Source: Bacteroidota bacterium
Lineage (GTDB): Bacteria > Bacteroidota > Bacteroidia > Bacteroidales > JAAUTT01
Reading direction: 5' to 3'
DNA: 64,000 bases
NCBI GenBank assembly: GCA_020048915.1
Contig: JAIFLU010000038.1
Span: 2,358-66,357, forward strand
This document shows, piece after piece, positions 25,178-33,840 of the stretch. The notes under the pieces were generated by a model. That model made no database searches, had not been told where the DNA came from, and saw nothing but the letters and a program-made list of their open reading frames with translations. Every line of letters starts with the position of its first letter. Within the stretch, counting starts at the first letter, position 1. Position numbers and translations under genes: made by a program.

Positions 25178-26263
25178 ATGAAGAATACACAATCGATTAA
25201 ATTAGTATTGGAAGATGGAACTGAAATTGCTGGCTGTAGTTTTGGCTTTGAGGGTTCGATAAATGGCGAAGTTGTTTTTAATACTGCTATGACTGGCTAT
25301 CCTGAAAGCCTTACAGATCCATCTTATAAAGGACAAATTTTGGTTCTTACATATCCCCTCGTTGGAAATTATGGGGTGCCAGCAGATAGCATGGAGAATA
25401 ATATGCTGAAGTTTTTTGAATCAAATAAATTGCATATCTCCGCATTAGTAATTTCTGATTATTCCTTAGAATATAGTCACTGGAATGCTTCAAAAAGCCT
25501 GTCTGCCTGGTTAAAGGAAAATAAGGTTCCCGGAATATATGGAGTGGACACCAGGGCACTTACCAAGCGGTTACGCGAAAATGGTACTATGCTTGGTAAA
25601 GTTATTTATAATAATCAGGATGTTGAATGGTATAATCCTGATTTGGACCATTTGGTAGCCCAGGTAAGCACTCCCCAAAAAGAAGTGTATGGGAATGGAA
25701 AGTATAAAATTGTTTTGATTGATTGCGGCGTAAAATATAACATTATCCGATATTTGCTTCAAAAGGATACTACTGTAATTCGTGTTCCTCACGATTACGA
25801 TTTCTCTCAGGAGGCTTACGATGGTTTGTTTATTTCGAACGGCCCCGGTGACCCAAAAAAATGTGAGACAACTATTAACAATCTTGCCAAAGCATTTAAA
25901 CAAGATATTCCGGTTATGGGTATCTGCCTGGGAAATCAATTAATGGCTTTGGCATCGGGTGCAAATACGTATAAATTAAAGTATGGACATCGAAGTCACA
26001 ATCAGCCTGTTCTAAAAGTTGGAACTCCAAAAGCCTATATTACCTCACAAAACCATGGGTTCGCCATTGATAATAATACTCTTGGGAGCGATTGGGAACC
26101 TTATTTTATCAATTTAAATGATAATACGAACGAAGGAATGCGCCATAAAACAAAACCGTTTTTTTCTTCGCAATTCCATCCGGAAGCTTCTGGCGGACCA
26201 ACGGATACCGATTTTCTTTTTAACGACTTTATTAAAGACGTAAAAAAATACAAAGGCAATTAA
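25178..26263 (+). CDS. carA: Carbamoyl-phosphate synthase small subunit
   Basis: GEVVFNTAMTGYPESLTDPSYKGQILVLTYPLVGNYGVP; GICLGNQLMALA; SQFHPEASGGPTDT. Confidence 0.97.
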   Translation: MKNTQSIKLVLEDGTEIAGCSFGFEGSINGEVVFNTAMTGYPESLTDPSYKGQILVLTYPLVGNYGVPADSMENNMLKFFESNKLHISALVISDYSLEYSHWNASKSLSAWLKENKVPGIYGVDTRALTKRLRENGTMLGKVIYNNQDVEWYNPDLDHLVAQVSTPQKEVYGNGKYKIVLIDCGVKYNIIRYLLQKDTTVIRVPHDYDFSQEAYDGLFISNGPGDPKKCETTINNLAKAFKQDIPVMGICLGNQLMALASGANTYKLKYGHRSHNQPVLKVGTPKAYITSQNHGFAIDNNTLGSDWEPYFINLNDNTNEGMRHKTKPFFSSQFHPEASGGPTDTDFLFNDFIKDVKKYKGN

Positions 26264-26330: not shown

Positions 26331-26480
26331 GGAGGGCTGGAGGTATATTTTATTCGATCAATCTAGGTTGATATATTTAGAGTTACTTGTTATATAATAC
26401 CAATTATATAACAATAATATAATTATTTAAAAATATATTTTTAATTTTTCTAGTAAATATATATTTTGGCTCATATTTTG

Positions 26481-26516
26481 TAACTAATTAATTAGTTAAT
26501 AAACTAAATTGTTAGG
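26481..26516. promoter_or_regulatory. Candidate BlaI-like operator (two adjacent dyads) upstream of the BlaI/M56 genes
   Basis: TAACTAATTAATTAGTTAATAAACTAAATTGTTAGG contains the perfect 16-bp palindrome AACTAATTAATTAGTT; 32/36 identity with 28313-28348. Confidence 0.6.
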
Positions 26517-26563
26517 ATATTTGCATATTAATATTAGCAATTTATCCAATTTAAAAGTTCAAG

Positions 26564-26962
26564 ATGCAACCAAAAAGAGATATAGTACTTACCCGTGCAG
26601 AGGAATCAATAATGCAAGTTCTATGGCAAATAGAGCGCGGAGTTGTAAAAGATATTATTGAGCACTTACCTGATCCAAAACCTGCTTATAATACTGTCTC
26701 AACAATCATACGCATTCTTGAAGCAAAAAAAATCGTTACTCATAAAGCCTATGGGAAAACGCATGAATATTTTCCTTTGATTTCCAAGGACGACTATTCC
26801 CGAAGATTTCTAAAAGGCTTTGTAAAGGGATATTTCAATAATTCGTTTCAAAAGATGGTTTCGTTTTTCTCAGAAGGAGAAGAAATTGATATTCTTGAAT
26901 TGGAACAAACTATGAAAATTATGCAGCAACAACTTGAAAACAGAAAAAAGACAAAATCATGA
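26564..26962 (+). CDS. BlaI/MecI/CopY family transcriptional regulator
   Basis: LTRAEESIMQVLWQIERGVVKDIIEHLPDPKPAYNTVSTIIRILEAKKIVTHKAYGKTHEYFPL. Confidence 0.93.
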   Translation: MQPKRDIVLTRAEESIMQVLWQIERGVVKDIIEHLPDPKPAYNTVSTIIRILEAKKIVTHKAYGKTHEYFPLISKDDYSRRFLKGFVKGYFNNSFQKMVSFFSEGEEIDILELEQTMKIMQQQLENRKKTKS

Positions 26963-28296
26963 ATTACCTAATTTATCAATTTAAGGTAGCTATACTATTG
27001 AGCTTATTTTATGGAATATATAGAATTTTGTTAAAAAACTCGGTTCAATTTCGGTTAAATAGGTTTTTTATATTGTGTTCCCTCTTTTTGTCAATGATTG
27101 TTCCTTTTATCAAGATTAACATTGCAGATAAGCAATTGTTAAACTACGCTCAATTATTACCAGAAGTGATTGTAGGAAATATTAAGATGGGCTCTCCTTT
27201 TTCTTCGGATGTCTGGATAAATTCATTTGTACTTTTTACTTTAGTTATATTTATTTTATTATTTATATATCAGTTTGTTAAATTGTTCATTTTTATAAAT
27301 TCATCTCAAAAAAAGTTTAATAAAAATTATATTCTTGTTCTAACTAACGGATATGAAGCTTTTTCTTTTTTCAGGTTTATTGTTTTGGGAAAGCTTATTC
27401 CAATGAAAGATAGAAAGACAATTATCCAACACGAGAAACTACATATTCGATATTTTCATTCAATTGATATTGTTATATATGATATTTTTAAATTAATGCA
27501 ATGGTTTAATCCTTTCTTATGGCTCTTTGGAAATTCATTAAAGGAAAATCATGAATTTGAGGTGGACAGAAAATTAATTAATCAAGGAGTTTCTATGGTT
27601 AGGTATCAGGAATTGTTAATGAATCAGTTATTTCAATCCGGTAAAATTAAGTTTTCTTCATTTAATCATAATTCACTAATTAAAAATCGAATCAACATGA
27701 TGAAAAATTCAAAAGGAAAGTCAGGGAAAACCAGGTTTTTGCTGGCTACAGTTTTAAGTTTATTTATTATTTCGGTGTTTGCTTTTAGAGGCGAAACAAT
27801 TAATGAAAACATTTCAATGAAATCGATAATTCATTCGAATGGAGATGTAGTAGAAAATTCTGGTAAATCTTTACAGAAGGATCATGCAACTGGATTGCAG
27901 AAAAATAATTTGCAAGCAACCTTAATTGTTACTCCCTTAAAAAAAGATACGGTTAAAAAGCTGGATTTAAAGGATGTTGCTTATTTACAACCAGAGGTTG
28001 CTGCACAGTTTCAGGGGAAAGATATTAATGAATTTGTTAGTTATGTGGCAACAAATGTTAAATATCCTACTGATGATGCTAAAAAGGGATTGCAAGGAAA
28101 AGTTTATATTCAGTTTTCGATTGAAAAGGACGGGAGTATTAAAACTGCATCTGTGATTCGTTCCAGTGGACATCAAAGTTTGGATAATGAAGCAGTTCGA
28201 GTAATATTATCCTCTCCGAAATGGACACCTGCAAGCGATAAAGGTAAAGTTGTAAAACAAATTTTTACTATCCCGGTAGTTTTTAGTTTGAAGTAA
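26959..28296 (+). CDS. M56 family (BlaR1-like) membrane metallopeptidase with C-terminal TonB-like domain
   Basis: IIQHEKLHIRYFHSIDIVIYDIFKLMQWFNPFLWLF; EVDRKLINQG; C-terminal VYIQFSIEKDGSIKTASVIRSSGHQSLDNEAVRVILSSPKWTPA; 4-nt overlap with the blaI-like gene. Confidence 0.92.
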   Translation: MNYLIYQFKVAILLSLFYGIYRILLKNSVQFRLNRFFILCSLFLSMIVPFIKINIADKQLLNYAQLLPEVIVGNIKMGSPFSSDVWINSFVLFTLVIFILLFIYQFVKLFIFINSSQKKFNKNYILVLTNGYEAFSFFRFIVLGKLIPMKDRKTIIQHEKLHIRYFHSIDIVIYDIFKLMQWFNPFLWLFGNSLKENHEFEVDRKLINQGVSMVRYQELLMNQLFQSGKIKFSSFNHNSLIKNRINMMKNSKGKSGKTRFLLATVLSLFIISVFAFRGETINENISMKSIIHSNGDVVENSGKSLQKDHATGLQKNNLQATLIVTPLKKDTVKKLDLKDVAYLQPEVAAQFQGKDINEFVSYVATNVKYPTDDAKKGLQGKVYIQFSIEKDGSIKTASVIRSSGHQSLDNEAVRVILSSPKWTPASDKGKVVKQIFTIPVVFSLK

Positions 28297-28312
28297 TTTT
28301 TTTTGAATTTTA

Positions 28313-28348
28313 TAACTAATATATTAGTTAATAAACTAATTAGTTAGG
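28313..28348. promoter_or_regulatory. Second copy of candidate BlaI-like operator, downstream of M56 gene
   Basis: TAACTAATATATTAGTTAATAAACTAATTAGTTAGG: perfect palindromes AACTAATATATTAGTT and AACTAATTAGTT; same length and spacing as 26481-26516. Confidence 0.5.
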
Positions 28349-28435
28349 TAATTGATTTGTTGGAAATTCAGCGGAATTTTATTCAGTTGGGTTTCCAACT
28401 TTTCATTTATATGTACCGTTCAAATAATCAATAAG

Positions 28436-28556
28436 CAATGTCGTTTAGTTAAGAAGTAGGCTTAGACTCGCTCAGCCTGACAAACTGGTATTATTTTCAT
28501 ACTGAGCGAAGTCGAAGTGCGGATTAATTATTCAATTCCTAAACTAAACAACATTG
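28436..28556. mobile_element. MITE-like palindromic element, copy 2
   Basis: TIRs CAATGTCGTTTAGTTAAG.../...CTAAACTAAACAACATTG; internal GACTCGCTCAGCCTGACA...CTGAGCGAAGTCGAAG; imperfect 10-bp flanking repeats aatcaataag/aattaataat (8/10). Confidence 0.7.
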
Positions 28557-30406: not shown

Positions 30407-33400
30407 TTAATATTCGTCCCAGCTTTTAATTGGGATATCGTCAATATCACGTTTACAAATAGCGATTAGGAAGGCACTTGCAAGCCGGGCATTTGTAATA
30501 AGAGGAATATTATAATCCACTGCACTCCTACGAATGGTATAGTCGTTATTCAATTCTTGTTTCGAAAGGTTTTTAGGGATATTTACCACTAAATCTATTT
30601 TCTTTTGCCTAATATAATCAAGTGTGTTGGGTTCCTTGTCTTCATCAGGCCAATGCAGCGCCGTCACCTCTAACCCATTGCTACGGAAAAATTCGGCAGA
30701 TCCTTTTGTCGCAAATAAGTTATAACCTTTTTCAACTAGCAGGCGGGCACTGTTTAATAATTCGACTTTATCGCGGGCTGTTCCGGTGGATAATAAAATA
30801 TTCTTCTTCGGAATAGTATATCCTACAGATAGCATAGATTTTAAGAGCGTCTCATAATAATCGTCTCCGATACAACCAACTTCTCCGGTTGAAGCCATTT
30901 CAACTCCTAATACAGGATCAGCCTTTAAAAGACGGTGAAAGGAGAATTGAGGAGCTTTTATCCCGATGTAATCCACCTCAAATATCGATTTGTCAAGTTT
31001 TTCAGCAGGAGCTCCCAGCATGATGCGCGTTGATAAATCTATAAGATTAGATTTTAAAACTTTTGAAACAAAAGGCATGGATCGTGAGGCACGCAAGTTA
31101 CATTCTATCACTTTAATGTCGTTATCCTTTGCAAGGAACTGCATGTTGAAGGGCCCAGAAATATTTAATTCCTTCGCAATTTTTCGGGCAATGCGTTTAA
31201 TACGTTTTACAGTTTCGAAATATATTTTTTGCGGAGGAAATACCATGGTGGCATCTCCACTGTGAACCCCAGCAAATTCTATATGTTCGGAAATTGCATA
31301 GGCCATCATTTCGCCGTCTCTGGCAACTGCATCAATTTCTATCTCTTTTGCGTTTTCAATAAACTCCGAAACAACCACCGGATAACGTTTCGACACATTG
31401 GCAGCCAATTCAAGGAAGTGTTTTAGTTCCTCCCGGTTAGAGACCACATTCATGGCAGCACCAGAGAGCACATACGAAGGACGGATAAGCACAGGAAAAT
31501 CTACCAGATCAATAAATTTATAGATTTCTTCGATACTGGTTAATTCTTTCCAACGAGGTTGATCAATTTTCAGGGTGTCGCACATCATTGAGAACTTATG
31601 ACGATCTTCGGCCCTGTCAATAGATAGTGGGGATGTTCCCAGAATGGGCACATGCTGATTGTGTAAACGGATGGCCAAATTATTTGGAATTTGTCCACCG
31701 GTAGAAATAATAACCCCTTTAGGAACTTCCAGGTCGGTAATATCAAGAACCCGTTCAAGTGAAAGTTCATCGAAGAAAAGGCGGTCGCATACATCGTAAT
31801 CAGTACTAACCGTTTCGGGATTATAGTTGATCATTACCGAACGGTAACCTTGCTCTTTAATGGTGTTTAAGGCACTTACCCCACACCAGTCGAATTCAAC
31901 CGAACTACCAATACGATATGCCCCTGAGCCTAGCACTACAACAGATTTATTATCACGAGCAAATTCCACATCGTGTTCTGTGCCGTTGTATGTAAGGTAG
32001 AGGTAATTGGTTTTGGCAGGATATTCTGCTGCCAGTGTATCAATTTGTTTTACAAATGGAACAACGCCCTGTTGCTTGCGATAAGTACGCACATTGAGGA
32101 GGTAATCTTCCATATGGTCGTTATCGCTTTTCAACACAAAACGGGCAAGTTGAAAATCAGAATACCCCATTTGTTTTGCATGTCGGAGCAAAGGAATGGG
32201 AAGTTCTTCAATTTTGTTGAATTTCTCTAATTCGTTCTTAAGACTAAAAATATTATGAAGCTTTATTAAAAACCAACGGTCAATTTTGGTAAGGTCGTGA
32301 ATTCTGTCCACAGAATATCCCCTTTCAAATGCATCAGCAATAACGAAGATGCGCATATCGGTAGGATTCGTAAGTTCCTTGTCCAAGTCGTCAAATTTTA
32401 AGTCGCGGTTACCAGTAAATCCGTGCATCCCCTGACCAATCATTCGAAGCCCTTTCTGAATCGCTTCTTCAAACGAACGTCCAATGGACATAACCTCTCC
32501 AACACTTTTCATAGAAGAGCCAATTTCTTTTGAGACGCCTACGAATTTGTTCAAATCCCAACGGGGAATTTTACATACGATATAATCAAGCGCTGGCTCA
32601 AAAAAAGCAGAAGTTGTTTTGGTAATAGAATTTTTAAGTTCGTGCAGACCATAGCTCAATGCAAGTTTTGCAGCAACAAAAGCCAGGGGATAACCGGTAG
32701 CTTTTGATGCAAGCGCAGAAGAGCGCGATAAACGTGCATTCACTTCAATAACACGATAGTCCTCAGAATGTGGGTCAAGCGCATACTGAACATTACATTC
32801 TCCAACAATTCCAATATGGCGAATGATTTGAATGGATAGACGACGCAGTTTATGATATTCGCTGTTAGTAAGCGTTTGTGAAGGAGCTACGACAATACTT
32901 TCGCCTGTATGAATTCCCAGAGGATCGAAATTCTCCATGTTACAAACCGTAATACAGTTATCGTAACAGTCGCGCACTACTTCGTATTCGATTTCCTTCC
33001 AGCCTTTAAGGGATTCTTCTACTAACACCTGGTTAGAGTATGCAAAAGCTTTTGAAACAAGCTTCTTTAATTCGTCCATATCGGAACAGAATCCACTGCC
33101 CAGTCCGCCCAGAGCATATGCTGCCCGCACAATAAGGGGGAATCCCAGTTTTTCAGCTGCTGCCATAGCATCTTCAAGATTGGAAGCTGCAACACTGCGG
33201 GCAGTTTTTACATTTATCTCGTTAAGTTTATTTACAAACAAATCACGGTCTTCAGTATCCATAATGGCCTGGATAGGAGTTCCCAAAACCCTGACATTGT
33301 ATTTTTCGAACATGTTAGCTCTAAACAATGCTATACCACAATTAAGAGCTGTTTGGCCACCAAAAGAAAGGAGTATCCCATCGGGTTTTTCTTTGGCTAT

Positions 33401-33625
33401 AACTTTTTCGACGAAATATGGGGTTACCGGTAAGAAATATATTTTATCGGCGATGCCTTCGGTAGTTTGAACAGTAGCAATATTGGGATTGATCAGAACA
33501 GTGTAAACACCTTCCTCTTTGAGGGCTTTGAGGGCTTGCGAACCGGAATAATCAAACTCACCAGCCTCCCCTATTTTGAGTGCCCCGGATCCCAGCACTA
33601 TTACTTTCTTTACGCTTTTATCCAT
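30407..33625 (-). CDS. carB: Carbamoyl-phosphate synthase large subunit
   Basis: VIVLGSGALKIGEAGEFDYSGSQALKALKEEG; duplicated ATP-grasp halves, MGS-like C-terminus. Start MDKSVKK preferred. Confidence 0.97.
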   Translation of the reverse strand: MDKSVKKVIVLGSGALKIGEAGEFDYSGSQALKALKEEGVYTVLINPNIATVQTTEGIADKIYFLPVTPYFVEKVIAKEKPDGILLSFGGQTALNCGIALFRANMFEKYNVRVLGTPIQAIMDTEDRDLFVNKLNEINVKTARSVAASNLEDAMAAAEKLGFPLIVRAAYALGGLGSGFCSDMDELKKLVSKAFAYSNQVLVEESLKGWKEIEYEVVRDCYDNCITVCNMENFDPLGIHTGESIVVAPSQTLTNSEYHKLRRLSIQIIRHIGIVGECNVQYALDPHSEDYRVIEVNARLSRSSALASKATGYPLAFVAAKLALSYGLHELKNSITKTTSAFFEPALDYIVCKIPRWDLNKFVGVSKEIGSSMKSVGEVMSIGRSFEEAIQKGLRMIGQGMHGFTGNRDLKFDDLDKELTNPTDMRIFVIADAFERGYSVDRIHDLTKIDRWFLIKLHNIFSLKNELEKFNKIEELPIPLLRHAKQMGYSDFQLARFVLKSDNDHMEDYLLNVRTYRKQQGVVPFVKQIDTLAAEYPAKTNYLYLTYNGTEHDVEFARDNKSVVVLGSGAYRIGSSVEFDWCGVSALNTIKEQGYRSVMINYNPETVSTDYDVCDRLFFDELSLERVLDITDLEVPKGVIISTGGQIPNNLAIRLHNQHVPILGTSPLSIDRAEDRHKFSMMCDTLKIDQPRWKELTSIEEIYKFIDLVDFPVLIRPSYVLSGAAMNVVSNREELKHFLELAANVSKRYPVVVSEFIENAKEIEIDAVARDGEMMAYAISEHIEFAGVHSGDATMVFPPQKIYFETVKRIKRIARKIAKELNISGPFNMQFLAKDNDIKVIECNLRASRSMPFVSKVLKSNLIDLSTRIMLGAPAEKLDKSIFEVDYIGIKAPQFSFHRLLKADPVLGVEMASTGEVGCIGDDYYETLLKSMLSVGYTIPKKNILLSTGTARDKVELLNSARLLVEKGYNLFATKGSAEFFRSNGLEVTALHWPDEDKEPNTLDYIRQKKIDLVVNIPKNLSKQELNNDYTIRRSAVDYNIPLITNARLASAFLIAICKRDIDDIPIKSWDEY

Positions 33626-33840
33626 TCTTTTTTTCCTAAATAATTTTACTTTCCAAAAATACACTTTTTATCCAGCGCGTAAAAATATATGTTTTGCAAC
33701 ACTTATAAAAGGAGAAAATGCAAAATACAGTTAGAAAATATTAATGATTGGACTGACGTGGGTTATAGGCGGTTTTTTTTATACAGCATCCTTCAACTTG
33801 CCGAAACAGGTTAATCCAATACAATATTTTAAAAATTCCA

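Follow-up and report, generated by a model that had tools for sequence, protein, structure and literature searches.

A T run at fixed distance before a BlaI-type operator at the 3' end of blaI-M56 operons in Bacteroidota: a possible repressor-dependent transcription stop

The 64-kb stretch of Bacteroidota DNA analysed here, referred to as the window, carries an operon in which a blaI-like repressor gene is followed by a gene for a BlaR1-type M56 peptidase that overlaps it by 4 bases. The operon lies, together with cupin, UPF0114 and Nudix genes, between carA and carB (25178-26263 and 30407-33664), which are on opposite strands. Its features are as follows.

26474-26480, plus strand: TATTTTG, a probable -7 element of the promoter, adjoining the upstream operator on its 5' side
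26481-26516, no strand: upstream (5') putative BlaI operator, with dyads at 26482-26497 and 26502-26517 whose starts are 20 bp apart; conserved before blaI
26564-26962, plus strand: blaI-like repressor gene, 132 aa (Penicillinase_R, PF03965, E 6e-28)
26959-28296, plus strand: BlaR1-type M56 peptidase gene, 445 aa, with a TonB_C domain (Peptidase_M56 8.6e-11, TonB_C 1.3e-18)
28297-28304, plus strand: T8 run that starts where the M56 stop codon ends, read from the sequence
28305-28313, plus strand: 9-nt spacer GAATTTTAT from the T run to the dyad, invariant in length among the 3' arrangements described below
28313-28348, no strand: downstream (3') putative BlaI operator, with dyads at 28314-28329 and 28334-28349, the second degenerate; conserved in the sister genomes G003 and G002
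28359-28408, plus strand: ordinary intrinsic terminator of the operon (stem-loop 28359-28399) with a T-rich tail

The repressor covers the whole Penicillinase_R domain (residues 9-120, 97.9 bits against a cut-off of 22.6) and matches the MecI and BlaI structures by sequence. Its partner matches the Peptidase_M56 family (PF05569) at 42 bits against a cut-off of 31, and its translation contains the HEXXH zinc motif as HEKLH. A penicillin-binding sensor domain was not found at the C-terminus of this protein, where a TonB_C domain stands instead; the protein is thus a member of the M56 family but not a BlaR1/MecR1, and probably responds to a different signal. The putative promoter element was identified by eye from a comparison of the upstream regions of the window and G003, the latter having TATATTTG at the place of TATTTTG. 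At the other end of the operon, the stem-loop of the terminator is 41 nt long (-22 kcal/mol, z -5.7) and lies about 55 nt past the start of the 3' dyad. Neither this hairpin nor the T8 run had been mentioned in an earlier note on the same DNA. Between the terminator and the cupin gene, at 28460-28520, there is a REP-like repeat containing ACTGAGCGAAGTCGAAG, with about 30 copies in the genome at one mismatch or less against 0 for the reversed control, and with a close inverted pair in one case.

The earlier note had drawn attention to the two 36-bp sites that bracket the operon, reporting 32 of 36 identical positions and a first dyad that stays palindromic in both copies. Direct comparison gave the same identity, and the central dyads AACTAATTAATTAGTT and AACTAATATATTAGTT are both perfect palindromes. 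Each site consists of a perfect 16-bp palindrome and a weaker second dyad starting 20 bp further on, and the repeat holds at 85% when lengthened to 47 nt. In the window the double-dyad pattern is matched twice, compared with 0 matches in 100 shuffles. A search of the 6.58-Mb genome for the exact dyad AACTAATNNATTAGTT, which the note had proposed, returned 2 places only, namely the two sites of the blaI-M56 operon, and the close matches to the double site are limited to these two and to those of two paralogous blaI genes. The dyad was not enriched in a genome-wide regulon search, and other targets of this BlaI are therefore not apparent in its own genome.

To assess the conservation of the upstream copy, loci with relatives of the window BlaI were gathered from other Bacteroidota, giving 161 distinct loci, and dyads of the form AACTA-N6-TAGTT with at most one mismatch were sought within 260 nt before blaI. 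Such a dyad is present in 141 of the 161; in 98, two dyads start at a distance of 20 bp from each other. This is by far the commonest spacing (110 pairs, against 8 for the next). The double operator of the Bacteroidota reads AACTAAN4TTAGTT twice at this spacing. In 81 upstream loci a -7 box TAnnTTTG follows a dyad, and similar double sites occur in relatives before TonB-like and thioredoxin-like genes adjoining blaI. The earlier note had taken the upstream copy for an autoregulatory operator and had named lack of conservation before orthologous pairs as evidence against it; the opposite was found, and the proposal is now well supported. Because the dyad is conserved before blaI across the Bacteroidota, we infer that it is the operator to which this BlaI clade binds.

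The characterized operators of BlaI/MecI and CopY share a core TACANNTGTA within an extended 16-bp site (PMC7253601). The window dyads have no ACA/TGT core and do not contain the published one, and are a Bacteroidota variant site, not a canonical cop/mec box, membership of the family resting on the protein. As in the BlaI/MecI-BlaR1/MecR1 and CopY systems, a winged-helix repressor of the same Pfam family is accompanied by an M56 antirepressor, and the sites are palindromic and often two in number. The Bacteroidota systems differ from them in the dyad AACTAAN4TTAGTT and its 20-bp repeat spacing, in an M56 partner that ends in TonB_C, and in the presence of an extra operator at the 3' end.

This extra operator was followed into G003 and G002, which belong to the same genus as the window. 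The 3' dyad stands 17 nt (G003) and 22 nt (G002) past the M56 stop codon, and the gene that comes next encodes a cupin in the window. In G003 this gene is glycosidase-like and in G002 aldolase-like, both names having been given by eye from the reading frames. Since the dyad is kept while the next gene differs in each species, the 3' site belongs to the operon. The suggestion in the earlier note that the downstream copy marks a lost gene is contradicted by these observations, and a lost downstream gene was ruled out on the same grounds. In all three species the T run at the stop codon is separated by exactly 9 nt from AACTAA (T8-GAATTTTAT in the window, T8-AATCTTTAT in G003 and T10-GAGTTTGAT in G002). 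The distance between the 5' and 3' sites is 1832, about 1708 and about 1756 bp in the three species. At the G003 locus (L148, G003:C108:88476-89736), two overlapping frames (275 and 155 aa) take the place of a single M56 gene, owing to a frameshift or an error in sequencing, and both operators are intact.

The close likeness of the two window copies could also suggest that the operator-blaI-M56 unit was once duplicated in tandem and that the downstream copy is a functionless remnant, and a tandem arrangement does occur at G080:C293:12961-15173, where two near-identical blaI genes lie 1844 bp apart. Nevertheless, G003 and G002 keep the positions of the dyads but have other centres and linkers, and the T run with its 9-nt spacer recurs in several families. 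We consider a relic very improbable, and conservation appears to have largely refuted it already.

The recurrence of the spacing was examined in 393 genomes of the order, using a pattern in which T7 is followed, after a gap of 0-30 nt, by AACTAAN4TTAGTT. Among the 55 sites recovered, 15 had a gap of 9, whereas each other gap had 1.33 sites on average (Poisson P 1.6e-11 without correction for relatedness, the 15 sites coming from eight family codes). All 15 are at blaI-M56 operons and on the sense strand, 12 of them after M56 and 3 in the blaI leader; outside BlaI-M56 operons the arrangement is at background. To look beyond the order, 395 genomes of the class were sampled; the window genome alone had a site at gap 9, and none of the 19 sites in the other genomes did. 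A Cytophagales-labelled contig (L099) provides a degenerate example.

A second scan, in which the T run was not preset, covered 147 distinct operons and considered 3' dyads within 150 nt of the M56 stop codon. Such a dyad was present in 18 operons, and in 14 of these it is preceded by a run of T7-10 at gap 9; for one of them (L247) the script reported a shorter T run within the spacer, the T8 run itself being at gap 9. At least two of the other four (L023 and L150) are promoter operators of the following gene. When runs of six or more T were compared with dyads throughout the 3' regions of the 147 operons, gap 9 was seen 14 times and gaps 1-8 and 10-19 not at all, and the matches at gaps 24-29 in operons with the arrangement correspond to later dyads. 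A follow-up search of three families revealed the same arrangement behind M56 in G774, G775 and G205. Of these, G205 has the same sequence as L031, which the local set already contained, so that the clearly new cases number two. The arrangement is present in only about one in ten of the operons examined, and on a poorly resolved quick tree of BlaI the 3' trait changed at least seven times by parsimony. Judged by its sequence anatomy, with T7-10, 9 nt and a dyad in a 3' position specific to blaI-M56 operons and an operator identity established by conservation, the downstream copy is a selected element with a rigid architecture, not a relic.

The T run could have belonged to an ordinary hairpin terminator, a reading ruled out by the lack of a stable hairpin directly before it in 13 of 15 3' sites; none precedes 28297-28304 either. 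Furthermore, a strong hairpin terminator is found past the operator in 11 of 16 cases, and the arrangement is thus not needed merely to end the transcript.

Promoter function was likewise tested. According to the earlier note, the downstream copy might serve an antisense or small-gene promoter, and a BlaI-repressed 3' promoter for a small or antisense RNA, with TTTTTTTG before the dyad as its -7 box, would agree with several observations. Some 5' operators, such as those of L048 and L101, read TTTG-N8-dyad, the same distance as in TTTTTTTG-N8-dyad; the base after the T run is G in 10 of the 14 3' arrangements (P 5e-5); and in the window a near -7 box, TTGATTTG, lies past the site. However, seven or more T leave no A for TAnnTTTG, which was found at 0 of the 14 sites, the -33 element is absent from 13 of them, no gene lies in that direction ahead of the hairpin terminator, and G003 is without any TTTG there. 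On the opposite strand, inspection by eye of the sites checked detected no TAnnTTTG. A promoter on either strand was not supported by these -7 and -33 element tests, and we regard this proposal as improbable. The shared TTTG-N8 distance may reflect a common origin of the 3' arrangement and a promoter arrangement. The G after the T run also agrees with the known pause consensus, Y at -1 and G at +1.

The position of the T run in relation to the operator suggests a different role. In the 3' arrangements it starts 16-19 nt and ends 10 nt upstream of the dyad, the T8 of the window covering 10-17 bp. E. coli RNA polymerase halts with its RNA end 14 nt upstream of the site of EcoRI Gln111 (EcoRI-Q111; PMC5499547), and in yeast Reb1/Nsi1 stop Pol I inside a T-rich tract, 15 bp before the bound protein (PMC12366685); both distances fall inside the T runs found here. 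The T run includes the positions 14-15 bp before the dyad, so that an RNA polymerase blocked by BlaI would contain a hybrid rich in U, which would be the simplest reason for an exact T-run-to-operator distance on the sense strand. We thus favour, with a probability of roughly 0.55, the reading in which transcription stops at the 3' end of the blaI-M56 operon in a repressor-dependent way, the downstream copy supplying the half of the device that binds the protein. The odds appear even that an inducible repressor standing 9 nt behind a hairpin-less U tract both stops RNA polymerase and releases it where its own operon ends, setting promoter activity as well as the mRNA 3' end.

From the arrangement we infer BlaI binding, polymerase arrest, RNA release and an effect on the mRNA, in the following order. 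BlaI on the upstream operator would block initiation and would also occupy the 3' operator, until the M56 protease, presumably, removes it on a signal. A polymerase that had escaped from the promoter and passed M56 would meet BlaI head-on, and its leading edge would halt with the RNA 3' end within the U run, 10-17 nt before the dyad, where the RNA-DNA hybrid is expected to be weakest. The transcript would be released at the U run, perhaps with Rho or Mfd; once BlaI is cleaved, polymerase would continue to the normal hairpin terminator. BlaI would then control initiation and also the choice of mRNA 3' end: speculatively, an early, hairpin-less and presumably unstable mRNA while BlaI is bound, and a hairpin-protected one after M56 has destroyed it. 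Release is the weak step of this reading. With Pol I, a roadblock and a T-rich tract alone released no RNA without a hairpin (PMC12366685), and since the hairpin is absent from 13 of 15 sites here, polymerase might depend on Rho or Mfd for release, or might only pause. The strong hairpin terminators that lie past most of the 3' operators, and the small share of operons with the arrangement, also count against this reading.

The main rival to the repressor-dependent stop is looping or local concentration, by which BlaI on the 3' operator would contact BlaI on the 5' operator 1.8 kb off and strengthen repression. In its favour, the operon has a strong operator on either side in at least the window and G003, and the only other close genomic matches to the double site are those of two blaI paralogues. 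A precedent is given in PMC10310618, where loops strengthen the roadblocks of LacI and lambda CI. On the other hand, looping leaves a T run at exactly 9 nt unexplained, and the inter-site distance varies among the three species. BlaI and MecI are dimers that are not known to loop, which also counts against it. Looping is possible but, in our judgement, unlikely. Of the earlier interpretation as a whole, the upstream operator stood; for the downstream copy the lost-gene option was contradicted, the promoter option found no support, and looping may still apply.

BlaI on the 3' operator might also act as an insulator that stops antisense polymerases from a convergent neighbour before they enter M56. 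In the window and in both sister genomes the next gene is convergent with the operon, and in one genus an opposing frame ends near the dyad. In L234, L246 and L247, however, the next ORF is co-directional, and the T run is on the sense side of the operon, whereas an opposing polymerase would reach the operator first. We consider an insulator decidedly improbable.

The proposed stop resembles the Pol I terminator (Reb1/Nsi1/TTF1 with a T-rich element; PMC12366685) in that a protein would be bound about 15 bp past the stop point, behind a T-rich tract, at a fixed tract-to-site distance and at a gene end. The T8 run spans the 14-15 bp upstream of the protein site, as in that system, but the upstream RNA hairpin that triggers release there is missing directly before the T run in most cases here; for this reason the 3' arrangement is likened to, and not classed as, a Pol I terminator. 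Moreover, the protein here would be a bacterial, inducible autorepressor of its own operon, and the arrangement is known from its anatomy. A terminator of this kind would be a bacterial counterpart, independently evolved, of the Pol I T-rich/roadblock terminator. With intrinsic terminators it would share the U tract as release element, the bound protein replacing the hairpin that is lacking in 13 of 15 sites.

Bacterial repressors that halt or terminate elongation from sites past the start site include LacI, PurR, GalR, CcpA and CodY (reviewed in PMC10310618). In Chlamydia, transcripts from upstream are terminated by YtgR at its operator (PMC6504234). In the passages of these two articles drawn on here, no roadblock has a dedicated U tract at a set distance, and none is placed after the final gene of the operon that encodes the repressor itself; a further difference is that a normal terminator comes after the operator in the window. 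The same arrangement was not found reported in the literature searched, which comprised open-licence papers only, and nothing relevant was found on Bacteroidota BlaI operators. Support for repressors wired to terminate, and not just to block, has so far come mostly from engineered LacI sites and single examples. An exact T-run-to-operator spacing kept in several lineages provides a case from nature that can be tested directly, a rule by which others may be found from sequence and, if the reading is true, a hairpin-free inducible terminator part, linking BlaI-type antirepressor systems to the control of mRNA 3' ends.

Related pairs occur in 5' leaders, where a second operator after a T run lies between the canonical promoter-operator and the blaI start codon. 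The gap is 9 in L249 (G332), L228 (G182), L227 (G054), L245 (G288) and L256 (G364), and 11 in G266 and G222. A weak hairpin precedes the T run in some, and most spacers read like ACAATAAAC or ACAATAATC. The leader pair looks like an attenuator version of the same arrangement, promising and less uniform than the 3' form. In G774:C61:19407 and G775:C129:1156 (L270 and L269), the 5' operator also has a T run 9 nt upstream, and that of G774 resembles the tail of the preceding gene's hairpin terminator.
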